DNA of 47,113 nucleotides from Tabrizicola sp. (GTDB lineage Bacteria; Pseudomonadota; Alphaproteobacteria; Rhodobacterales; Rhodobacteraceae): NCBI RefSeq assembly GCF_016792905.1, contig NZ_JAEULP010000034.1:1-47113 (forward strand). The letters run 5' to 3'. Both the position numbers and the translations under genes were made by a program. The first letter of the stretch is position 1. Each line of letters starts with the position of its first letter. Of the stretch, positions 8,839 through 42,159 are shown one piece after another. The notes beneath the pieces were generated by a model that worked only from the letters and a program-made list of their open reading frames with translations, was not told the DNA's origin and made no database searches.

Positions 8839-9617
8839 TCGTTCAACAGCGGCAGCATCAGCGAGAACAGTTCCGCCTGCGAGGAGATGCCGCAGCGCTG
8901 GTACAGCTGTTTGCGAAACACCTTCACCGTCTGCGGCGACACCCCGAGCTTCAGCCCGATCGACGGGGTCGAATGGCCGCGCAACACCAGAAGCGCGACC
9001 ATCGCCTGCCGTGGCGACAGTGCAATGCCCCTGCGTTTCGCCGCCTGGATCAGCAGCGCGGGCGTGTCCTCGACCGGCCTCGCATCGCTTTCCAGGTCCC
9101 GCCATTCGGCACGCGCCAATGCCGCAATCACGGGGCTCACGCGCTGACAGGCCGCCAGATCCTCCGCCGAGAACGCCCGTCCGGATCGCGCATCCCGCCC
9201 GAGACACAGGTTCAGTGACAGTCCCTCGGCCAGCGGCACGACAAAGGCAATCTCGTCGATCAGCGTGGTCGCACCGAAATACTCGGTGAAATAGCGGCTG
9301 CGCTGAAAGGCGTCCGGCGCAATGTCCCGGCTGCGGTAGGCGCCGTCCGTCACCCGCGCGAGATGCAGTTCATAATACGGGTCCAGCCGGTAGGCGCCTG
9401 ACAGGTACAGCGTTTCAAGTCTGGCAAAGACGCGCGGATTGTCCGACCGATGCAGCAGGACCAGCGGCGGCCCGGCATCGCGGTAAGCCATGACGATCAG
9501 GTTGTCGGGCTTGGCCAGCGCACCGAAGAGATCCCAGAGCGCCACCGCGAACCCGTCCTGCCGCAGGCCGGAGATGGCCGCAGCCACGCAAGTCTCGATG
9601 CTGCCATGCTGGGTCAT
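8772..9617 (-). CDS. LuxR-family transcriptional regulator
   Basis: A 281-residue regulator with a C-terminal LuxR/GerE helix-turn-helix at about 199-255 (ALSPRQAMVALLVLRGHSTP, then GVSPQTVKVFRKQLYQRCGI). The N-terminal 180 residues resemble no sensor domain I can name; I do not see the conserved tryptophans and aspartate of an acyl-homoserine-lactone pocket. It is divergent from the amidase-TMADH-like operon, and two copies of ACGGGGGTAT lie in the 96-base gap, so it probably controls that operon and itself in response to the substrate. The last 22 codons run antisense through the end of phoU and look like an extension past the usual domain end. Confidence 0.85.
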   Translation of the reverse strand: MTQHGSIETCVAAAISGLRQDGFAVALWDLFGALAKPDNLIVMAYRDAGPPLVLLHRSDNPRVFARLETLYLSGAYRLDPYYELHLARVTDGAYRSRDIAPDAFQRSRYFTEYFGATTLIDEIAFVVPLAEGLSLNLCLGRDARSGRAFSAEDLAACQRVSPVIAALARAEWRDLESDARPVEDTPALLIQAAKRRGIALSPRQAMVALLVLRGHSTPSIGLKLGVSPQTVKVFRKQLYQRCGISSQAELFSLMLPLLNDQPSASIPALGRGAEGRVPVAR

Positions 9618-9630
9618 CCTGCATACCTCA

Positions 9631-9651
9631 ACGGGGGTATATACCCCCCGT
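9631..9651. promoter_or_regulatory. Palindromic candidate operator, LuxR-type
   Basis: ACGGGGG, TATATA and CCCCCCGT form a nearly perfect 21-base palindrome 14 bases upstream of the luxR start codon. The half-site ACGGGGGTAT recurs at 9683. Position suggests autoregulation by the divergent LuxR-type protein; binding is inferred. Confidence 0.55.
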
Positions 9652-9682
9652 GTTCGCTCGGTCTACAGTATTTTCGTGATTC

Positions 9683-9696
9683 ACGGGGGTATCCCC
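9683..9696. promoter_or_regulatory. Second candidate LuxR operator
   Basis: ACGGGGGTATCCCC repeats the half-site of 9631-9640 and then continues as a shorter palindrome. The repeats start 52 bases apart, close to five helical turns, and this one ends 17 bases before the amidase start codon. A shared regulator of both directions is the simplest reading. Confidence 0.5.
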
Positions 9697-9713
9697 AGAC
9701 CTGGAGCCGACCG

Positions 9714-10472
9714 ATGCGACTGGCCCTCTGGCAGGGACCTTCCCCCGCCGCCGACATCGACGCTGCCTGCGCCCAGGCCGAGGCCGCCCTTGCCGCCGCA
9801 TCCGCGATGGGCGCCTCCGCCCTTGTCCTGCCCGAAGTCTGGCTGCACGGCTACAACCAGCCCGACATCGCCGCCCGCGCGATGGGCCTCGACAGCCCGC
9901 CCCTCCGCCGCCTTTCCGCAGCAGCCGAGGCCGCCCGCACCGCCCTTGTCGTCGGCTATGCCGAACGCGACGGCGACCGGGTCTTCAACTCCGCCGCCTG
10001 TTTCGGGCCCGACGGAGCGCTTCTGTGCAACTACCGCAAGGTGCAACTCTACGGCCCGCGCGAACGCGCGATCTACACGCCGGGAGACAGCCTTCCCGTC
10101 TTTCAGCTTGGCGGGAAAACAACAGCGATCCTGATATGTTACGATGTGGAGTTCGCACCACATGTGAAGTCGCTTTCCGACCGCGGTGCGACCCTTATCC
10201 TCTGCCCCACGGCGAACATGGCCCCCTTCACCCATGTCGCCCGCCACACGGTCCCGGCCATGGCCGCAAACCACGGCCTCAGCATCGCCTATGCCAACTA
10301 CTGTAGCACCGAGGGCGACCTGACCTACATCGGCAGCTCGCTCATCTCAGGGCCGCATGGCGAAATCCTGGCCCAGGCCGGCGAGACGCCGACCCTGCTT
10401 GTCGCCGAAATCCCGCCCCGCGATCCGGCGCGGGTTTCCACCCAATCCGCCGACCTGCGAGTGCTGAAATGA
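9714..10472 (+). CDS. Nitrilase-superfamily amidase, DavA/omega-amidase-like
   Basis: This carbon-nitrogen hydrolase has 252 residues and the family's catalytic triad: Glu41 in LPEVWL, Lys109 in CNYRKVQL and nucleophile Cys142 in LICYDVEF. The order and spacing of NYRK, YTPGD, ILICYDVEF, PTANMAPF and YANYCSTEG follow Pseudomonas 5-aminopentanamidase DavA, so a free amide of a small amino acid or amine is a plausible substrate. ATG at 9714 is used, since the frame is open upstream but the DavA-like start RLALWQGP follows at once. The gene overlaps the next one by 4 bases. With an amine dehydrogenase and RidA downstream, it probably handles one step of amine or amide breakdown. Confidence 0.85.
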   Translation: MRLALWQGPSPAADIDAACAQAEAALAAASAMGASALVLPEVWLHGYNQPDIAARAMGLDSPPLRRLSAAAEAARTALVVGYAERDGDRVFNSAACFGPDGALLCNYRKVQLYGPRERAIYTPGDSLPVFQLGGKTTAILICYDVEFAPHVKSLSDRGATLILCPTANMAPFTHVARHTVPAMAANHGLSIAYANYCSTEGDLTYIGSSLISGPHGEILAQAGETPTLLVAEIPPRDPARVSTQSADLRVLK

Positions 10473-12550
10473 CCCGCCTTCCCGCACACGACATACTGTT
10501 CACGCCGCTGCAAATCGGCCCGAAGCTTGCCAAGAACCGCTTCTACCAGGTCCCGCACTGCAATGGCGGCGGTTACCGCGACCCGTCCGCCGTCGTGGAA
10601 ATGCGCCGCACCAAGGCCGAGGGCGGCTGGGGCGTGATCTTCACCGAACAGACCGAGATCCACCAGACCAGCGAGATCACCCCCTTCATCGAACAGCACC
10701 TCTGGGAGGACAAGGACATCCCCGCGCTGGCCCGCATGGCCGAGGCGATGAAGTCGCACGGCGCGCTTGCGGGCATTCAACTCGCCTACAGCGGCATCAA
10801 CGGCCCGAACCTCTACTCCCGCGAAGTGCCGCTTGCCGTGACCGGCGGCCCGATCCTGACCTTCACCTCCGACCCGGTGCAGGCCCGCACCATGGACAAG
10901 GAAGACATCCGCGACCTCCGCCGCTGGTTCCGCAACGCCTTCCGCCGCAGCCAGACGGCCGGGTTCGACCTGATCTGCCTTTACGGCGCGCATGGCTTCG
11001 GCATCCTGCAACACTTCCTGTCCCGTGCCACCAACCACCGCAACGACGAATATGGCGGCTCCTTGGAAAACCGCGGCAGGTTCCTGCGCGAAGTGGTTGA
11101 AGATCTTCGTGAAACCACCAAGGGCGAACTGGCCGTCTCCTTGCGCATGTCGCTGCACGAAGCCGGGGCCTACGGCTTCTCCAATGCCGAACTGCGCGAT
11201 TTCATCGCCATGAACGGCGACCTGCCCGACATCTGGGACCTCGCGCATGGTACCTGGGAAAACTGCTCCGGCACCAGCCGCTTCAAGCCCGAGGGCGCGC
11301 AGGAAGACCTCGTGCGCGGCATCAAGGAACTGACCTCGAAACCCGTTGTCGGCGTCGGCCGCTTCACCTCGCCCGACGCGATGGTGCGGCAGATCAGGAC
11401 CGGCGTCCTCGACTTCATCGGTGCCGCGCGCCCCTCCATCGCCGATCCTTTCCTGCCGCTCAAGGTGCAGGAGGGCCGGTACGAGGACATCCGCGAATGC
11501 ATCGGTTGCAACATCTGCGTGAGCGGAGACATGACGCAGGGCATCAGCCGCTGCACCCAGAACACCGCCTTCATGGAGGAATGGCGCAAGGGTTGGCACC
11601 CCGACCGCGCCCGCCCGAAGGGCGCTTCGGAAAGCGTGCTGATCGTCGGCGCCGGTCCCACCGGACTTGAGGCTGCCCTGCAAGCCGCCCGGCGCGGTTA
11701 CAAGGTCACGCTGGCCGAAGCCACCACCACCCTCGGCGGTCGCGTCGCGAAGGAACGGCTCCTCCCCGGCCTCTCCGCCTGGGGCCGCGTCGCCGACTAC
11801 CGCACCGGCCAGATGGCGGTGATGCCCGATGTCGAAATCTACCGCGACAGCCGCCTGACGCCCGAGGACATCCTGGCCATGGGGGCCGACCATGTCGCCA
11901 TCGCGACCGGGGCGACATGGCGCCGGGACGCCGTGGCGCGGCTCCACCTGCATCCGATCCCGACCGACCCGGCGATGGCCCTCTACACTCCGGACGACCT
12001 GATGGCGGGACGCTGCCCGGAAGGACAGACCGTCACGCTTTACGACGACGATCATTTCTACATGGGCTCGGTCCTGGCCGAACTTCTGGTCGCGAAGGGC
12101 AACCGCGTCCACTTCGTCACGCCCGCCGTGAAGGTTGCGGAATGGACCGACAACACGCTGGAGCAAGGCACGATCATGCGTCGGCTCATGGAGATCGGCG
12201 TCGAAATCCACCTGAGCAAGGCGCCCGAAGCCATCGGCGCGGCGGAGATCACCCTCGGCTGCACCTGGACGGGCCGGGAAACCACCCTGGCCACTGTTGC
12301 AGTCGTCTATGTCACCTCCCGCACTCCGGACGACGCGCTCTATCACGGGGCGAAGGCGCTGGACTGGCAGGGGGCGGGCATCCGCTCGCTGAAGCTGATC
12401 GGCGATGCCGCCGCCCCCGGCCCCATCGCCTGGGCGACCTATGCCGGTCGCGCCTGGGCCGAAGGCCTCGACCAGCCCGATCATGGCGACGCCTTGCCCT
12501 TCCGGCGTGAAATTGCCGCACTGGACCCCGGAGCCTCGCTCTTGCCATGA
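10469..12550 (+). CDS. Trimethylamine/dimethylamine dehydrogenase-like iron-sulphur flavoprotein
   Basis: This 693-residue member of the TMADH family probably oxidises an amine to an imine and passes electrons to an ETF-type acceptor. Residues 1-340 form the FMN barrel. Cys31 in FYQVPHC matches the cysteine that covalently binds FMN in TMADH, and the active-site Tyr and His sit in LYGAHGF. The 4Fe-4S ligands are Cys344, Cys347, Cys350 and Cys362 (CIGCNIC...SRCTQN). A dinucleotide fold (VLIVGAGPTGLEAALQAAR, near 390) starts the FAD/ADP part. Where TMADH has bowl residue Tyr60 this protein has Gln61, the change I recall for dimethylamine dehydrogenase; the other bowl tryptophan in the 4Fe-4S loop is absent. 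Substrate is unknown; histamine or a polyamine derivative is also possible. Confidence 0.85.
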   Translation: MTRLPAHDILFTPLQIGPKLAKNRFYQVPHCNGGGYRDPSAVVEMRRTKAEGGWGVIFTEQTEIHQTSEITPFIEQHLWEDKDIPALARMAEAMKSHGALAGIQLAYSGINGPNLYSREVPLAVTGGPILTFTSDPVQARTMDKEDIRDLRRWFRNAFRRSQTAGFDLICLYGAHGFGILQHFLSRATNHRNDEYGGSLENRGRFLREVVEDLRETTKGELAVSLRMSLHEAGAYGFSNAELRDFIAMNGDLPDIWDLAHGTWENCSGTSRFKPEGAQEDLVRGIKELTSKPVVGVGRFTSPDAMVRQIRTGVLDFIGAARPSIADPFLPLKVQEGRYEDIRECIGCNICVSGDMTQGISRCTQNTAFMEEWRKGWHPDRARPKGASESVLIVGAGPTGLEAALQAARRGYKVTLAEATTTLGGRVAKERLLPGLSAWGRVADYRTGQMAVMPDVEIYRDSRLTPEDILAMGADHVAIATGATWRRDAVARLHLHPIPTDPAMALYTPDDLMAGRCPEGQTVTLYDDDHFYMGSVLAELLVAKGNRVHFVTPAVKVAEWTDNTLEQGTIMRRLMEIGVEIHLSKAPEAIGAAEITLGCTWTGRETTLATVAVVYVTSRTPDDALYHGAKALDWQGAGIRSLKLIGDAAAPGPIAWATYAGRAWAEGLDQPDHGDALPFRREIAALDPGASLLP

Positions 12551-12609
12551 CCGCACAAAGCGCATTCACCTGTTCGCAAATATCCCCTGCGGAGCACGCC
12601 CGAGCCGGT

Positions 12610-12660
12610 TGCGCGCCCTTCGCGCGCAGAGGCGAGACAAAAGGAATGCGCGGAACGCGC
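12610..12660. repeat. Two small hairpins between the flavoprotein gene and ridA
   Basis: TGCGCGC (12610-12616) pairs with GCGCGCA (12622-12628), and GCGCG (12648-12652) pairs with CGCGC (12656-12660). The 145-base gap otherwise holds no gene. A TTGACA at 12666 follows, but no fitting -10 is seen. The hairpins may adjust the level of ridA and the DUF1028 gene relative to the upstream genes; this is inferred. Confidence 0.35.
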
Positions 12661-12695
12661 TCAATTTGACAACCGCCCGTCACAAAGGACCGACA

Positions 12696-13118
12696 ATGAC
12701 CCACTTCCGCCATCGCAAGTTCAACACCAAGGACACCTACCCCGAGCAGAAGCTTGACAACGACCTCGCCCAGGCCGTCGTCGCCCGGGGCCGAACCGTC
12801 TTTTTGCGCGGCCAGTGTCCGCAGGACCTCGACACCGCCAAGGACATCGGCAGCCATGACCCGGTGGAGCAGACCCACAAGGTGATGCAGAACATCCGCC
12901 AGCTGCTGGAAGAAGTCGGCGGGAAGATGGAGCATCTCTGCAAGGTCGTGGTCTACCTGACCGACGTCCGCCACCGGGAAGCCGTCTACCGGACGATGGG
13001 CGAGTATATCAAGGGTGTGCACCCGGTCTCGACCGGGGTGGTCGTCACGGCCCTTGCCCGGCCCTCCTGGCTGGTCGAGATCGACGGCACCGCAGTGATC
13101 CCGGACGACGAAGCATGA
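12696..13118 (+). CDS. RidA-family protein (Rid/YjgF/YER057c/UK114)
   Basis: RidA proteins hydrolyse reactive enamines and imines to the ketone or aldehyde. The 140-residue product contains FLRGQCPQDLDT, QTHKVMQNIRQLLEEVG, a KVVVYLTDVRHREAVY block and PVSTGVVVTALARPSWLVEID. In RidA the arginine of the last block (ALARPSWLVEID) binds the substrate carboxylate. ATG 12696 is preferred over upstream in-frame starts because MTHFRHRKFN directly precedes the fold; CAAAGGA lies in front. The stop overlaps the DUF1028 start (ATGA). Next to an amine dehydrogenase that would make imines, it plausibly clears or processes the oxidation product. Confidence 0.88.
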   Translation: MTHFRHRKFNTKDTYPEQKLDNDLAQAVVARGRTVFLRGQCPQDLDTAKDIGSHDPVEQTHKVMQNIRQLLEEVGGKMEHLCKVVVYLTDVRHREAVYRTMGEYIKGVHPVSTGVVVTALARPSWLVEIDGTAVIPDDEA

Positions 13119-36574: not shown

Positions 36575-37969
36575 ATGAATGTTCTCGTCTGGTTCAAGCG
36601 CGACCTGCGCATTCACGACCATCCGGCGCTGGTTCTGGCGGCCAGGACCGGCGCGGTCCTGCCGGTCTTCGTGGTGGAGCCCGAGCTTTGGGCGCAGCCG
36701 GAGACCTCGGCCCGGCAGTGGGCGTTCGTGGAGGAGAGTTTGGCCGACCTGCGGGAAGACCTGTCGGGGATCGGCGCCCCGCTGGTGGTGCGGGTGGGCG
36801 ATGCGGTGCAGGTGCTGGCGGGCTTGTGTCGGCGGCATGGCATCGGGCAGATCGTCAGCCATGCCGAAACCGGGACACCTTGGACCGAAGCGCGCAACCG
36901 GCGCGTGGCTGATTGGGCGCGGGCGGCGGGGATCATTTGGACCGAACTGGTGCCCCCCGGCGTCTTGCGGGGGCAGACAGGCGCCTCGTTGCCCGCCCCT
37001 GCCCTCCTTGGCATGGCGGGGGTCGAGCCGGGGCTGATCCCGTCCGCACGGGCCCTGAAGCTGGCCGCCGATCCCTGCCCGCACCGCCAGTTGGGCGGGC
37101 GCGATTGGGGGCTGGAACTGCTGGACAGCTTCCTCTCGCGTAGGGGCGAAGCCTATCGTGTGGCGCAGTCCTGTCCTTTGGCCAGCGAGCGCGCTTCGTC
37201 CCGCCTGTCTCCGCATCTGGCCTGGGGAACAGTGGCGGTCGGCGAGGTCGCCAGGGCAACGGCCGTGCGGCAGGCGGAACGGCCGGGCGGGCGCTGGGGC
37301 AGCGCGCTGTCGGCCTTTCGATCGCAATTGACCGGGCGGGAGGCTTGCGCGGCAGGCTTGGCGGACGTGCCGACGGGCTGTTTGGCGGGACCGCCCGGCG
37401 ATCCGGAACGGCTGGCCGCCTGGGTTGCGGGCGAAACCGGCCTGCCTTTCCTCGACGCCTGCCTGCGCTACCTGCGGGCAAGCGGTTGGCTGAATGCCCG
37501 GTTGCGCGGAATGGTGGCCTCGGTCGCCTGCCACCAGCTTGGGCTTGACGGGCAAGCCGTTGGCCAGCATCTCGCCCGGCAATTCACCGACCACGATCCC
37601 GGCGTCCTCTGGCCGCAGATGCGGGCGCTGGCGGGGACCGGTTTCACCCAGCCACGGCGCTTGTACGATCCGGTGAGGCTGGGTTGCGCGTTGGACCCGG
37701 CGGCGGTCTTCACCCGCCGCTGGCTGCCCGAATTGGCAGCGGTACCGGAGGCCGTCCTGCACGCACCCTGGCGCTGGCCCGAGGCGCGGCGGCTGCTCGG
37801 CCAGCGCTACCCCGAGCCGATCATCGATCTTGCAAGCGCCGCCCGAGAGATAGGCGAGCGGAGCCGGTCGGCGCGACGCCGCGCTGTCCCTGCGGGTGCC
37901 GCGATCAGGCGAGGCGGAGAACCGGCGAAGCCTTGGCCTTCACAAGCGCAGCTCTGCCTGCCCTTCTGA
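36575..37969 (+). CDS. Cryptochrome/photolyase-family flavoprotein, possibly degenerate
   Basis: The 464-residue protein has the photolyase N-terminal alpha/beta domain (NVLVWFKRDLRIHDHPAL, HAETGTPWTEARNRRV) and the FAD domain (SSRLSPHLAWGTVAVGEV, GLPFLDACLRYLRASGWLNARLRGM, FTDHDPGVLWPQM, RRWLPELAAV, YPEPIIDLASAARE). In related proteins the stretch after GWMNFRMRAM carries tryptophans (pattern LWLDW); here it reads LGLDG (Gly323, Gly326), while the Trp346 near the flavin is kept. The middle residue of the electron-transfer chain may thus be lost. The conserved Asn region of true photolyases is not clear either. It may be a light sensor or a decaying repair enzyme. Confidence 0.8.
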   Translation: MNVLVWFKRDLRIHDHPALVLAARTGAVLPVFVVEPELWAQPETSARQWAFVEESLADLREDLSGIGAPLVVRVGDAVQVLAGLCRRHGIGQIVSHAETGTPWTEARNRRVADWARAAGIIWTELVPPGVLRGQTGASLPAPALLGMAGVEPGLIPSARALKLAADPCPHRQLGGRDWGLELLDSFLSRRGEAYRVAQSCPLASERASSRLSPHLAWGTVAVGEVARATAVRQAERPGGRWGSALSAFRSQLTGREACAAGLADVPTGCLAGPPGDPERLAAWVAGETGLPFLDACLRYLRASGWLNARLRGMVASVACHQLGLDGQAVGQHLARQFTDHDPGVLWPQMRALAGTGFTQPRRLYDPVRLGCALDPAAVFTRRWLPELAAVPEAVLHAPWRWPEARRLLGQRYPEPIIDLASAAREIGERSRSARRRAVPAGAAIRRGGEPAKPWPSQAQLCLPF

Positions 37970-37971
37970 CC

Positions 37972-38001
37972 TTGACGCGGGCCGCGCGCCGCCAATACTA
38001 T
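37972..38001 (+). promoter_or_regulatory. Candidate sigma-70 promoter of the second flavoprotein operon
   Basis: TTGACG (37972-37977) and TACTAT (37996-38001) stand 18 bases apart, 24 bases before the start codon at 38026. The -35 overlaps the end of the photolyase operon, 3 bases past its stop. AAGGA (38015-38019) is the ribosome site. No clear TetR palindrome is seen nearby. Confidence 0.55.
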
Positions 38002-38025
38002 ACGATCATTCAGCAAGGATGACCG

Positions 38026-40050
38026 ATGCCGCGCGATCCCCGCTATGACATCCTGTTCGAGCCGGTTCGGATCGGCCCGGTCACGGCGCCCAATCGCTTC
38101 TACCAGACTCCCCATGCCACCGGCTTCGGCTGGCAGCGCCCGCAGTCCGGCGCGGCGCTGCGCGGGGTGAAGGCGGAAGGCGGCTGGGGGGTGGTCTGCA
38201 CCGAATACTGCTCGATCCACCCGACATCGGACGACAGCCCCTATGCCTTCCTGACACTGTGGGATGACGACGACATCGCCCCCCTCGCCCTGACTGCGGA
38301 CGCGATCCATGCGCATGGGTCGCTGGCAGGGATCGAGCTTTGGCACGGCGGCGCCCATGCCTCGAATAGGATGACGCGCGTGCCGGGGATTGCGCCGGAT
38401 GCGCAGCCCGCCCTCTACCACCTGCCGACGACGGCACGGGCAATGGACAAGGCCGACATCCGCGCCTTTCGCGGATGGCAGCGCGATGCTGCCGTGCGGG
38501 CGAAGCGGGCGGGCTTCGATCTGGTCTATGTCTATGCCGGGCACGACTACCTGCCCTTCCAGTTCCTGTCGCGCCGCACCAACGCACGCTGCGATGCCTA
38601 TGGCGGGTCGCTGGAGAACCGCGTGCGCCTCTTGCGCGAGATGATAGAGGACACCAGGGAGGCGGTGGGCGACACCTGCGCGGTCGCCGTGCGACTGGCC
38701 GTCGACGAATTGCACGGGCCGGAGGGGATCACCTCGGAAGGCGAGGGCCGCGAGATCATCGAGATGCTGGCGGAATTGCCGGACCTCTGGGACGTGAACG
38801 TCGCGGGGGCCCTGGGCAATGACTCGCGCTCGGCCCGCTTTTCGGCGGAGGGGTTTCAGGAGGAGAATGTCGCCTTCGTGAAGTCGCTGACCACGAAGCC
38901 CGTGGTCTCGGTTGGCCGCTTCACCTCTCCCGACCGCATGGTCAGCCAGATCAGGCGCGGAGTGCAGGATTTCATCGGTGCGGCGCGTCCCTCGATTGCC
39001 GACCCCTTCCTGCCCGCGAAGATCCGGGAGGGGCGGGAGGACGAGATCAGGGAGTGCATCGGCTGCAACATCTGCCGGGCGGCGAACAACGAAGGCGTGG
39101 GGTTGCGCTGCACCCAGAACCCGACAATGGGCGAGGAATGGCGGCGCGGCTGGCACCCGGAGCGGATCGCGGTTCATCCCCGCCGGGAGACGGCGCTGGT
39201 GATCGGCGGCGGCCCGGCCGGGCTGGAGGCGGCGCTGACCGTGGGGCGGCGGGGGCTTGAGGTGACGCTCGCCGAGGCGGGCGATGCCTTCGGCGGCAGG
39301 CTTTTGCGCGAGGCGGCGCTACCGGGGCTGGCAACATGGATGCGGGTCAGGGACTGGCGGCTGACCATGCTGGACAAGTTGCCGAACGTGCAGCTTTACC
39401 CCGGCAGCCGGATGGGGGCCGCCGAGGTGGCGGAGTTCGGCGCGGATCATGTGGTGCTGGCAACCGGCTCGCGCTGGCGGCGCGACGGGGTGGGGGTCTA
39501 TGCCATCCGGCATGGGGTCTTTCCCGAGGCGCTGACGCCCGATGATGTCTTCGCCGGGGCGCGGGTCACGGGGTCGGTGGTGATCTACGACGACGAGCAC
39601 TACTTCATGGCCGGTGCGCTGGCCGAGCGGCTGGCCAAGCAAGGCCATGCGGTGCGCTATGTGACGACGGCTGCCCTGGCCTCGTCATGGACAGTGCTGA
39701 CCAACGAACAGGATTTCCTGCAGGCCCGGCTGATCGAGGCGGGGGTGGAGATTATTCCGCTCAAGTCCCTGACGTCGCAGGGCAAGGGAGAAGTCGCGCT
39801 GTCCTGCGTCTATACGGGACGCGAGGAAAGGCTTCCCTGCGGCACGCTGATCCTGGCCACGGGACGCCTGCCGGAGGACAGCCTGTGGCACGATCTGGTG
39901 ACGGCAGGGATCTCCGCCACCCGGATCGGCGATTGCCTTGCGCCGTCCTCCATCGCCGATGCCGTCCATTCCGCCCACCGCTTCGCCCGCCTCTTGGGCG
40001 AGCCCGACCTGCCGCCGCGCCGCGAGCGCGCCCCGGAAAGGAGCCTCTGA
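38026..40050 (+). CDS. TMADH-family flavoprotein lacking the FMN-linking cysteine
   Basis: This 674-residue paralogue of the protein at 10469 has the FMN barrel, 4Fe-4S ligands Cys344, Cys347, Cys350 and Cys362 (CIGCNIC...LRCTQN) and a dinucleotide fold (ALVIGGGPAGLEAAL). The active-site Tyr and His are in VYAGHDYLP, and bowl residue Tyr61 (TEYCSIHP) matches TMADH Tyr60. However the cysteine that binds FMN covalently in TMADH is Ala31 here (FYQTPHA), so FMN should be held non-covalently; other bowl tryptophans are absent (GALGNDS, RAANNEG). It shares a TGATG junction with the MttB-family gene, pointing to a methylated amine substrate. Confidence 0.85.
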   Translation: MPRDPRYDILFEPVRIGPVTAPNRFYQTPHATGFGWQRPQSGAALRGVKAEGGWGVVCTEYCSIHPTSDDSPYAFLTLWDDDDIAPLALTADAIHAHGSLAGIELWHGGAHASNRMTRVPGIAPDAQPALYHLPTTARAMDKADIRAFRGWQRDAAVRAKRAGFDLVYVYAGHDYLPFQFLSRRTNARCDAYGGSLENRVRLLREMIEDTREAVGDTCAVAVRLAVDELHGPEGITSEGEGREIIEMLAELPDLWDVNVAGALGNDSRSARFSAEGFQEENVAFVKSLTTKPVVSVGRFTSPDRMVSQIRRGVQDFIGAARPSIADPFLPAKIREGREDEIRECIGCNICRAANNEGVGLRCTQNPTMGEEWRRGWHPERIAVHPRRETALVIGGGPAGLEAALTVGRRGLEVTLAEAGDAFGGRLLREAALPGLATWMRVRDWRLTMLDKLPNVQLYPGSRMGAAEVAEFGADHVVLATGSRWRRDGVGVYAIRHGVFPEALTPDDVFAGARVTGSVVIYDDEHYFMAGALAERLAKQGHAVRYVTTAALASSWTVLTNEQDFLQARLIEAGVEIIPLKSLTSQGKGEVALSCVYTGREERLPCGTLILATGRLPEDSLWHDLVTAGISATRIGDCLAPSSIADAVHSAHRFARLLGEPDLPPRRERAPERSL

Positions 40051-41558
40051 TGCGCCAGCGCCGCCCCGCCCGGAGCCCGAACGCGATCCCCCAGCGCCCC
40101 TTCGGCCAGGTGCCGCGGGTTTATGACCCGATCCGGGTGCTGTCCGACGATCAGGTGGAGGCGATCCACCGTGCCGCGCTGGTTTTGCTGTCGACGCAGG
40201 GGATGCGGGTCCTGAACGGCTCCGCGCTGGACCATTTCCGCCGGGCCGGGGCGAAGGTCGAGGGCAACATGGTCTACCCAGACCCCGGTCTGGTCGAAGA
40301 ACGGCTGGCGACCGTGCCCCGGACCTTCACCATCGCGGCGCGGAACCGGGCGAAGGACCTGCGTTTCGGCGGCAACGACTTGGTGTTCTCCAGCGTCGGC
40401 GGCCCGGCCTATGTGATGGACCTCGACCGCGGCCGCCGCGACGGGACCTTGCAGGACATGCAGGATTTCCTGCGCCTCTGCCAAAGCCTGAACGTGATCC
40501 AGCAGGAATCCGGCGGCCCGCTGGAACCGATGGACCTGCCCGCCGCGACGCGCCATCTGGACCTTTACCTGTCGCAATGCACGCTTCTGGACAAGAGCTG
40601 GAACCTGAACGCCCTTGGCACCCAGCGCACGATGGACGGCCTGCATATGGCGGCGCTCCTGATGGGCTGGAGCATGGATGACCTTGCCCGCCAGCCGATG
40701 ATGATGGGCGTGATCAACACCAACTCGCCCCGGCAACTGGACGACCCGATGAGCCAGGGACTGATCGCACTGGCCGAGCATGGTCAGGTCGCCATCGTCA
40801 CTCCCTTCACGCTGGCGGGCGCGATGGCCCCTGTCAGCCTGGCGGGCGCGCTGGTCCTGCAGCACGCCGAGGCGATGTTTGGCATCACCCTGACCCAGAT
40901 CGTGCGCCCCGGCGTGCCGGTGATGTACGGCGGCTTCACCTCGAATGTCGACATGAAGACCGGGGCGCCCGCCTTCGGGACGCCCGAATATGCCAAGGCC
41001 GCGCAGGCCAGCGGGCAACTGGCGCGGCGGATCGGGGTGCCGTTCCGGTCATCCAACACCACGGCGGCCAATGCCATCGACGCCCAGGCGGCCTATGAAT
41101 CGATGATGTCGCTCTGGGGTTGCCTGATGGGCGGGGCGCATCTGGTGATCCACGGTGCGGGCTGGATGCACGGCGGGCTGACCGCCAGCTTCGAGAAGCT
41201 GATCCTCGACGCCGAGATGCTGGGGATGATGCAGGCCTATTTCCAGCCCATCCCCGTGACCGACGAATCCCTGTCGCTCGATGCCATTGTCGAGGCCGGG
41301 GTGGGCGGGCATTTCTTCGGCACGGCGCAGACCATGGCGCAGTATGAAACCGCCTTTCACCCGCCGATGCTGTCGAACTGGGACAGCTATCCGAACTGGC
41401 TGGCGCGCGGGGCCGAGGAAGCCCCGGCCCGCGCCAACCGCATCTGGAAGGAATTGCTTTCCAGCTACGAAGCGCCGCCCCTTGACCCCGGCGTGCTGGA
41501 AGCGTTGAACGCCTATGTCGCCCGCCGAAAGGCCGAGGGTGGCGCGCCCACGAACTAG
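40050..41558 (+). CDS. Trimethylamine methyltransferase (MttB) family protein, non-pyrrolysine type
   Basis: MttB-family enzymes move a methyl group from a quaternary or tertiary amine to a corrinoid protein. The 502-residue product shows the family texture: RVLSDDQVEAIHRAALVLL, GGPAYVMDLDRGRR, QQESGGPLEPMDLP, AIVTPFTLAGAMAPVSLAGAL and NTTAANAIDAQAAYESMM. There is no in-frame stop inside, so no pyrrolysine; such members are known to act on glycine betaine, proline betaine, carnitine and similar compounds. The start overlaps the flavoprotein stop (TGATG), with AAGGAG 7 bases before. No corrinoid-binding protein is encoded nearby, so the methyl acceptor is unclear. Confidence 0.85.
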   Translation: MRQRRPARSPNAIPQRPFGQVPRVYDPIRVLSDDQVEAIHRAALVLLSTQGMRVLNGSALDHFRRAGAKVEGNMVYPDPGLVEERLATVPRTFTIAARNRAKDLRFGGNDLVFSSVGGPAYVMDLDRGRRDGTLQDMQDFLRLCQSLNVIQQESGGPLEPMDLPAATRHLDLYLSQCTLLDKSWNLNALGTQRTMDGLHMAALLMGWSMDDLARQPMMMGVINTNSPRQLDDPMSQGLIALAEHGQVAIVTPFTLAGAMAPVSLAGALVLQHAEAMFGITLTQIVRPGVPVMYGGFTSNVDMKTGAPAFGTPEYAKAAQASGQLARRIGVPFRSSNTTAANAIDAQAAYESMMSLWGCLMGGAHLVIHGAGWMHGGLTASFEKLILDAEMLGMMQAYFQPIPVTDESLSLDAIVEAGVGGHFFGTAQTMAQYETAFHPPMLSNWDSYPNWLARGAEEAPARANRIWKELLSSYEAPPLDPGVLEALNAYVARRKAEGGAPTN

Positions 41559-41565
41559 GATCCCG

Positions 41566-42159
41566 ATGCCCCGCGCCTCTGCCCCCCGCTTCACCCGGAT
41601 GACCAGCGAGGACCGCCGCGCGCAGCTGATGGACGTGGCGCTTGCCGGGCTGGCGAGGGGCGGCATCCAGGAATTCACCGTGGACCGCATCTGCCAGGCG
41701 GCGGGCGTGTCGCGCGGGCTGATCCTGCATCATTTCGGGTCAATGGGCGGGCTTCTGGCTGCCGTCTATGCCCGGCTTTACCGCGAGACCACGCCCAACC
41801 TTGCGTCCTTGCCCACCAATGCGCGGCTGGAGGCCCTGATCGAGGGCACCTTCGCGCCGAAAGCCTTCAACCGCGATACGCTGAACGCCTGGGTCGCGCT
41901 TTGGGGCCAGATCGCCAACACCCCGAAACTGCGTGAGGAACACCGGCGGCAATACGCGGCCTATGTCGAGGATGTGTCGGCGGCGATTGCGGCCCTGTCC
42001 TCGACGCCGGGAGGCGCCCTGGAGGCCCGCCCCCTGGCCAAGGCGCTGATCTGCCTGATCGACGGGCTTTGCCTGCAACACTGCCTCGATCCTGCAGCGA
42101 TGCCCGCCGAGACGGCGAAGGCGGCCTGCGGCGCCTTCCTCGCGCCCCATCTCGGCTGA
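41566..42159 (+). CDS. TetR-family regulator, BetI-like
   Basis: The 197-residue protein has an N-terminal TetR helix-turn-helix (RRAQLMDVALAGLARGGIQE, ICQAAGVSRGLILHHFGS) and a BetI-like C-terminal domain with RDTLNAWVALWGQIANTP, REEHRRQYAAYVEDV and LIDGLCLQHCLDPA. BetI senses choline, so this member may sense the quaternary amine used by the two upstream enzymes. The gene begins 7 bases after the methyltransferase stop and ends directly against the convergent SRPBCC gene. Confidence 0.87.
   Translation: MPRASAPRFTRMTSEDRRAQLMDVALAGLARGGIQEFTVDRICQAAGVSRGLILHHFGSMGGLLAAVYARLYRETTPNLASLPTNARLEALIEGTFAPKAFNRDTLNAWVALWGQIANTPKLREEHRRQYAAYVEDVSAAIAALSSTPGGALEARPLAKALICLIDGLCLQHCLDPAAMPAETAKAACGAFLAPHLG

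Follow-up and report, generated by a model that had tools for sequence, protein, structure and literature searches.

The closest described counterpart of the locus reported here is the MtgBCD system of Ruegeria pomeroyi DSS-3, which acts on glycine betaine. According to the accessible part of its description, an MttB-family protein is served there by unlinked MtgC, MtgD, RamA and DUF1638 proteins, methyl groups pass to tetrahydrofolate, MtgC and MtgD function in the demethylation of glycine betaine as well as in methionine synthesis, and MtgC is considered to be shared by as many as seven open reading frames of the MttB family (PMC12478193, 2025). The substrates known for the MttB family are, in the available portion of a second report, quaternary amines that carry an acidic group, and choline requires prior phosphorylation (PMC12155760). 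Among flavoproteins, the described relatives are trimethylamine dehydrogenase (TMADH), the histamine dehydrogenases and the 6-HPON amine oxidase HisD of Pseudomonas geniculata N1. We analyzed a stretch of 47,113 nucleotides from Tabrizicola sp. (Rhodobacteraceae; contig NZ_JAEULP010000034.1, positions 1 to 47,113, forward strand), hereafter the window. In it, a flavoprotein of this kind (FLV), an MttB-family methyltransferase (MttB) and a TetR-family regulator (TetR) are encoded by three tightly spaced neighboring genes, all on the + strand (38026-42159).

This is a real, conserved arrangement of known enzyme families that is so far undescribed in the literature searched; no cassette of MttB, flavoprotein and CocE was found there, subscription papers and preprints lying outside its scope. 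The genes, their conserved linkage, the MtgC-, MtgD-, RamA- and DUF1638-like genes of the same genome and a common palindrome are directly observed. On this basis, we consider it reasonably likely that a conjugated quaternary amine, in which a betaine-like compound is bound as an ester, amide or peptide, is degraded by a dispersed regulon to which the three genes contribute the catalytic core and the regulator. The conserved pair probably strips methyl groups successively from the quaternary amine, by way of a vitamin B12 protein encoded elsewhere. As in R. pomeroyi, there are several MttB paralogues in the genome (eight, only one of which adjoins FLV). In contrast, the accessible text on that organism mentions neither a flavoprotein that partners an MttB paralogue nor a hydrolase or importer cassette for one (PMC12478193), and the window MttB is not tied to glycine betaine. 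The features concerned are the following:

37972-38001, + strand: sigma-70-type promoter-like site, TTGACG (37972-37977), an 18-base spacer and TACTAT (37996-38001)
37995-38016, no strand: predicted TetR operator, an imperfect palindrome ATACTATACGATCATTCAGCAA overlapping the -10 hexamer
38026-40050, + strand: FLV, 674 amino acids; Fe-S flavoprotein of the TMADH/histamine dehydrogenase type with Ala31 at the FMN-linking Cys site; probable tertiary-amine dehydrogenase/demethylase
40050-41558, + strand: MttB, 502 amino acids; non-pyrrolysine member of the MttB superfamily (COG5598/PF06253); probable quaternary amine:corrinoid methyltransferase
41566-42159, + strand: TetR, 197 amino acids; BetI-like TetR-family protein, predicted repressor of the FLV-MttB-TetR operon and of a gene block on another contig (C69)

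Conservation of the FLV-MttB pair

FLV and MttB meet in a TGATG junction (FLV stop 40048-40050, MttB ATG 40050-40052), and seven bases separate the MttB stop from the TetR start. The Pfam domains are Oxidored_FMN and Pyr_redox_2 in FLV, MTTB in MttB, and TetR_N and TetR_C_6 in TetR. MttB belongs to its superfamily by a PF06253 match of 625 bits (cut-off 25) over positions 6-500 of 500. It is not of the pyrrolysine type, scoring 288.9 bits against TIGR02369 (cut-off 525); its frame is open, with no amber codon, and in the alignment to the MttB chain 7xcl, Thr337 falls at X334, which we take to be pyrrolysine. MtgB (2qne/9yce) and the MttB homologue 4yyc, presumably from Sinorhizobium, are likewise non-pyrrolysine and match the window MttB over nearly its whole length, but with scores of no more than 322-348 bits. 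At the Pyl334 position, the loop sequence is SSN(T/V)xAAN in MttBs of the cassettes versus SGG-L-NDSK in MtgB. A structure model of MttB (mean pLDDT 75.5, low over 337-384) is too poor around the active site to add to this. An earlier reading of the window from its letters alone (the sequence-only reading) had described three coupled genes with this junction and gap, a non-pyrrolysine MttB, and a flavoprotein with Ala31 for the FMN-linking Cys that keeps the catalytic Tyr/His and the 4Fe-4S cysteines; the gene coordinates, Thr337 and the alignment of FLV to TMADH (1djn) bear out each of these points.

The pairing was counted from both sides. From the MttB side, contigs were scanned with nine paired MttBs and the best 80 loci were retained; more exist. 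FLV stands directly upstream on the same strand in 19 of the 20 loci whose MttB is at least 60% identical to that of the window, and it is present in 3/7 loci at 55-60%, 2/37 at 50-55% and 0/16 below 50%. A mixed set that includes duplicates gives adjacency in 31/32 at MttB identities of at least 60%. From the FLV side, the count covers every one of the 86 FLV-like matches (E <= 1e-150) obtained in 198 family genomes. Eleven are, at 60% identity or more, of the window type (FLV1) or of a second type (FLV2), and all eleven have Ala at the Cys site and an adjoining MttB of at least 64% identity. The other 75 comprise 73 with Cys and two with Ala (L096, L222), none with an MttB of at least 50%. 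A chance neighborhood is rejected by these counts. Conserved co-occurrence, which had been proposed as a check on the coupling, is thus found both among the MttB-selected loci and among the FLV orthologues.

The pair ranges over Rhodobacterales, Mesorhizobium and other Hyphomicrobiales, and metagenome-assembled genomes (MAGs) labelled Gammaproteobacteria and Alphaproteobacteria. The FLV and MttB genes overlap at stop and start in many loci, for example L058, L083-L085, L088, L092, L098, L099, L124, L126, L130 and L160; in L082/L117 the alignments place about 335 bases between them. Two loci (L070:5980-9620, L080:5935-10896) in which a Cys-bearing FLV relative adjoins a distant MttB homologue (25-26% identical to the window's) were not scored as pairs. 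They represent a further amine-catabolic combination of these two kinds of enzyme; in L080 a Rieske oxygenase stands between the two genes and a PotABCD-like importer lies upstream.

A flavoprotein lineage without the FMN-linking cysteine

Over its full length, FLV has the layout of the TMADH/histamine dehydrogenase family, with an FMN barrel of the old yellow enzyme (OYE) type, a 4Fe-4S domain and Rossmann domains in the TMADH order. Its structure model (mean pLDDT 79.7) has TM-scores of 0.9 to 3k30, 6l6j and 2tmd. In the alignment to 1djn, Ala31 stands at Cys30, which leaves the 6-S-cysteinyl FMN link site absent, as in the C30A mutant of TMADH (1djq). All four 4Fe-4S cysteines are retained (C344, C347, C350, C362), and Y61, H173, Y175 and D266 correspond to Y60, H172, Y174 and D267 of TMADH, residues whose catalytic and structural roles there we take as given. 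TMADH holds trimethylamine in an aromatic bowl, presumably formed by Y60, W264 and W355. In FLV the tyrosine of this bowl is kept (Y61) and both tryptophans are replaced, by Leu263 and Asn354.

The idea that absence of the cysteine is unprecedented was rejected, since Ala occurs naturally in 6l6j, L096 and L222 and by engineering in 1djq; the FMN-linking Cys is not a strict family feature. The new point, as judged from the aligned sequences, is that the Cys-less state is fixed in the MttB-paired lineage, a Cys-less member as such being already known. Ala occupies the site in 30 of 32 MttB-paired FLV rows versus 2 of the 40 remaining rows, which include three solved structures. The 6l6j protein, which shares the fold and the Ala, belongs to another part of the tree, carries a Leu-type substitution in the Y174 region (HNL) and has no MttB link in the loci examined. 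The histamine dehydrogenases (3k30, 6de6) share the fold of FLV but keep the Cys.

The paired FLVs form one clade, with an SH-aLRT support of 93 for 30 Ala rows in a first tree. That tree omitted L059 and L082, which come from the genomes of L119 and L117, rows of fewer than 600 columns, and L138, in which the motif was unmatched. In a second tree, with L138 added and the long branches L096 and L086 removed, support is 86 for 32 paired rows including the Cys-bearing L138 and L160, and 38 for the 30 Ala rows alone. As the paired clade contains these two Cys-bearing members, pairing may predate the loss of the Cys. Because the paired FLVs form one clade, the association of Ala with pairing amounts to about one event, on which an independent-pairs test is without power; it shows the Cys loss neither as cause nor as consequence of pairing. 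Within the lineage, FLV1 keeps the equivalents of Y60, H172, Y174 and D267, and FLV2 has Ala, Met, Tyr and Asp at these positions. Mesorhizobium genomes hold FLV1 or FLV2 in an otherwise equal cassette, which suggests that the two types are interchangeable and that one has replaced the other in place. In that genus the FLV type differs between loci L098, L121 and L125 and loci L120, L122, L123 and L127, although their MttBs stand at nearly the same level of identity (61-62%).

The solved proteins nearest to FLV are histamine dehydrogenase and the 6-HPON amine oxidase (48-49% identity), ahead of TMADH (40%). This favors a somewhat unlikely alternative, in which FLV works in the same pathway but cleaves the C-N bond of the hydrolyzed product to an aldehyde and a small amine, with no demethylation. 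Histamine dehydrogenase deaminates and the 6-HPON oxidase (Pno) releases methylamine, as stated in the available part of the source (PMC5500553). Like FLV, the Pno homologue 6l6j carries Ala in place of the Cys, and the aromatic bowl of TMADH is not kept in FLV. Against C-N cleavage, FLV1 retains the four active-site equivalents as in TMADH, and its HDYLPFQFL segment is closer to HSYLPLQFL of TMADH than to the histamine dehydrogenases.

The window contains a second flavoprotein of the TMADH type (10469-12550, + strand), which is 48% identical to FLV, has kept the FMN-linking Cys and clusters with the histamine dehydrogenase 3k30 in the tree. The open frame ahead of it (9450-10472) is presumably of the nitrilase type, and one after it, within 12405-13118, we take to be of the RidA type.

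A proposed dispersed regulon with a hydrolase and an importer

TetR resembles BetI repressors in its TetR_N and TetR_C_6 domains, the latter being the BetI-type C-terminal domain, and in the palindromic predicted operator near a promoter. It differs in scoring below the cut-offs of both NCBIfam BetI models (86.6 of 118 and 84.1 of 201.3 bits) and in not being linked to betAB. The description of TetR as BetI-like in the initial note hence holds as a family resemblance and falls short of the models themselves. The operator presumably differs from known BetI operators. The TetRs of the cassettes are 40-61% identical to that of the window or to that of L099. The promoter-like site agrees with the consensus at 9 of 12 positions, a consensus match only; there are two overlapping sites of this kind in 37850-38100, whereas 50 shuffles of that interval gave 0.0 on average.

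A palindrome, TTGTTGTACGATCGTTCAACAA, lies upstream of the Mesorhizobium FLV. In a pattern search of the whole genome (3.79 Mb), the top match is the promoter of a CocE-type hydrolase gene on contig C69 (58976-58997, one mismatch) and the second-best is the FLV promoter (C38:37995-38016, two mismatches). The remaining rows have three mismatches, and the reversed pattern gives one match over the genome as a control. Sites that agree with the operator consensus at 15 or more of 20 positions number 30 in 34 cassette loci (636 kb) versus five in 88 control loci (1.44 Mb). By a script rule, 23 of the 30 lie within 250 bases upstream of FLV, CocE or MttB. The other seven (L189, L114, L121, L122, L123, L125, L127) are at the 5' ends of CocE, as read from coordinates by eye, and escaped the rule because the CocE reference has an N-terminal extension.

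The hydrolase is part of a recurrent cassette. Of the 20 loci with an MttB of at least 60% identity, 15 have CocE, 18 a related TetR and 12 a solute-binding protein of the L099 type (SBP5). In Fuscovulum ytuae, nine genes run in the same direction: FLV, MttB, a CocE/NonD hydrolase, two ABC permeases, two ABC ATPases, a solute-binding protein and TetR. In Mesorhizobium sp. B2-1-8, FLV-MttB faces TetR, the binding protein, two ATPases, two permeases and CocE. The nearest relative, a Tabrizicola MAG (L108, MttB 91%), has FLV-MttB divergent from CocE and TetR, which are followed by an AstE/AspA-like gene (identified visually by its similarity to the C69 gene) and then by a binding protein and Opp-type permeases. 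In the window's own genome, the hydrolase-importer block is on a separate contig, C69, and comprises CocE (62% identical to the L059 CocE), a 371-amino-acid AstE/AspA-type protein, an OppA-like binding protein, OppB/C-like permeases and two ATPases. This half of the system and the common operator were missed in the sequence-only reading because they lie outside the window.

Loci without CocE can carry other enzymes. L110 has a histone-deacetylase-type amidohydrolase, BKACE, an alpha/beta hydrolase, an M19 dipeptidase and SBP5; L138 has an alpha/beta hydrolase between FLV and MttB; and L146 has an M20 peptidase ahead of MttB. In Rhodobacter-like genomes, the histone-deacetylase-type amidohydrolase stands by the FLV-MttB pair in L110:4866-7311 and L111:5531-6547, with BKACE in L110 only; such neighbors possibly hint at the carbon skeleton of the substrate. 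In two deeper-branching MAGs (L160:5695-12621, L142:7849-12597), CocE, MttB and a Rieske-type oxygenase form one run, with FLV in L160. Judged from these two loci, the link between hydrolase and MttB is older than the Ala31 lineage.

It is doubtful, on these grounds, that the system acts on a common free betaine, such as glycine betaine, proline betaine or carnitine, and that the nearby hydrolase and importer serve something else. CocE and the binding protein recur in Rhodobacterales and Hyphomicrobiales alike, CocE-less loci such as L110 and L138 can hold other hydrolases, and the operator marks CocE promoters as well. In favor of a free betaine, the hydrolase-importer block is unlinked in the window's genome, and genomes such as G178, G188, G201 and G217, among others, are without a close CocE orthologue. 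Moreover, the MttB-family substrates characterized earlier are all free betaines or phosphocholine, as far as the accessible text reports (PMC12155760).

A candidate corrinoid partner and the proposed pathway

The B12-binding domain (PF02310) has four matches in the genome (C21, C40, C75, C56) and none on the window's contig. The sequence-only reading, which had found no corrinoid protein in the window, is confirmed on this point, and candidates for the distant corrinoid and methyltransferase II genes that it had proposed to look for are present. There is one free-standing corrinoid protein (PF02607 and PF02310, MtgC-like, L013), on C21, adjoining DUF1638 and a homocysteine-methyltransferase-type protein. 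An MtgD-like methyltetrahydrofolate:corrinoid methyltransferase-type protein (L190) is on C36 (NF005719, 407.8 bits, cut-off 259), and a RACo/RamA-type activase (L192) is on C79. An MtgC-like match over the full length (189-218 bits) occurs in 29 of the 31 genomes that encode this MttB; in G210 the match is fragmented, and G068, an assembly that is 76% complete, has none. Weaker MtgC-like matches occur in 11 of 14 control genomes. MtgC lies within 20 kb in only one of the 20 closest MttB-selected loci; in Frigidibacter sp. SD6-1 (L115), MtgC and DUF1638 genes are about 7 kb from the cassette.

A further explanation, which we regard as very unlikely, gives FLV, in place of substrate turnover, a redox role in support of the corrinoid system, such as the re-reduction of inactive Co(II)-MtgC for MttB. 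Its tight conserved coupling to one MttB lineage only would suit such a role, as would the absence in FLV2 of the His of the catalytic triad, and a non-covalently bound FMN could have a lower potential. However, the RamA-like activase and DUF1638 already serve eight MttB-family genes, of which one stands beside this FLV, and FLV belongs among amine dehydrogenases. Action of MttB and FLV without any corrinoid protein, the second alternative of the sequence-only reading, fits the absence of a B12-binding domain on the contig and the rarity of MtgC near the pair, but it is highly improbable and was rejected as unneeded: corrinoid genes lie elsewhere in the genome, a full-length MtgC-like protein accompanies the MttB gene in nearly every genome that has it, the exceptions being one incomplete assembly and one broken-up match, and an unlinked common MtgC is the published arrangement in R. 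pomeroyi, of the same bacterial family, going by the accessible description (PMC12478193).

We therefore return to the degradation of a conjugated quaternary amine, for which the individual reactions, the order of steps, the pairing of regulator and operator and the kind of substrate are what we infer. The conjugate would be taken up by the Opp/Dpp-type ABC importer of C69. The CocE/NonD hydrolase and the adjoining AstE/AspA-type deacylase would free the quaternary amine, possibly exposing an acidic group for MttB. Since known substrates of the MttB family carry such a group, a carboxylate freed by CocE would have a role like that of choline phosphorylation. MttB would then give one methyl group to the cell's common MtgC-like corrinoid protein (C21), from which it would pass through the MtgD-like protein (C36) to tetrahydrofolate, with the RamA-like protein (C79) and DUF1638 (C21) keeping the corrinoid reduced. 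FLV would oxidize the remaining tertiary amine, by demethylation or C-N cleavage, its electrons leaving through the 4Fe-4S cluster, probably to electron transfer flavoprotein (ETF). The BetI-like TetR would repress both units at the promoter palindrome until the substrate or a metabolite binds it. The conserved pairing fits the first alternative of the sequence-only reading, that FLV acts on the tertiary amine left by MttB; the reactions in it are as conditional as those above. The full sequence of events, namely an undescribed aerobic pathway with Opp/Dpp import, carboxylate exposure by CocE/NonD, a first demethylation through a corrinoid shared with methionine synthesis, a second by the Cys-less FLV, and control by one BetI-like regulator, is a tentative proposal.

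Several observations weigh against the proposed pathway. The aromatic bowl is altered (W264L, W355N), and the substrate of FLV, as far as the alignment goes, cannot be read from TMADH. FLV2-type partners have lost His172 (Met) and Tyr60 (Ala), and the partner FLVs need not share one chemistry. FLV is dispensable in at least one case: L109 has kept MttB (88%), CocE and the importer with no FLV beside MttB, and none of the FLV matches in that genome exceeds 53%. All MtgC-like proteins are below the curated NCBIfam MtgC cut-off (370 bits). In a CocE search of 13 genomes, identities above 60% were found only in G000, G028, G034 and G200, the nine others giving 42-48%. The operator of the window is weak, agreeing with the strict consensus at 14 of 20 positions, below those of the relatives. 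In addition, the ranking of the C69 site was not blind, the pattern having been written with prior knowledge of the sequences upstream in relatives and of part of that site in translation.

In aerobic Rhodobacteraceae and rhizobia, many MttB-family genes without an assigned substrate draw on one corrinoid protein. The cassette supplies one MttB lineage with a full set of partners, including an importer, a hydrolase, a second-step flavoprotein, a regulator and an operator, and its substrate should as a result be findable by induction. Two chemistries would be coupled in this way: the quaternary step would use methyl transfer to a corrinoid, and the tertiary step oxidation by a flavin. The paired FLVs also provide a natural lineage without the 6-S-cysteinyl FMN bond, the bond that was deliberately removed in TMADH C30A.

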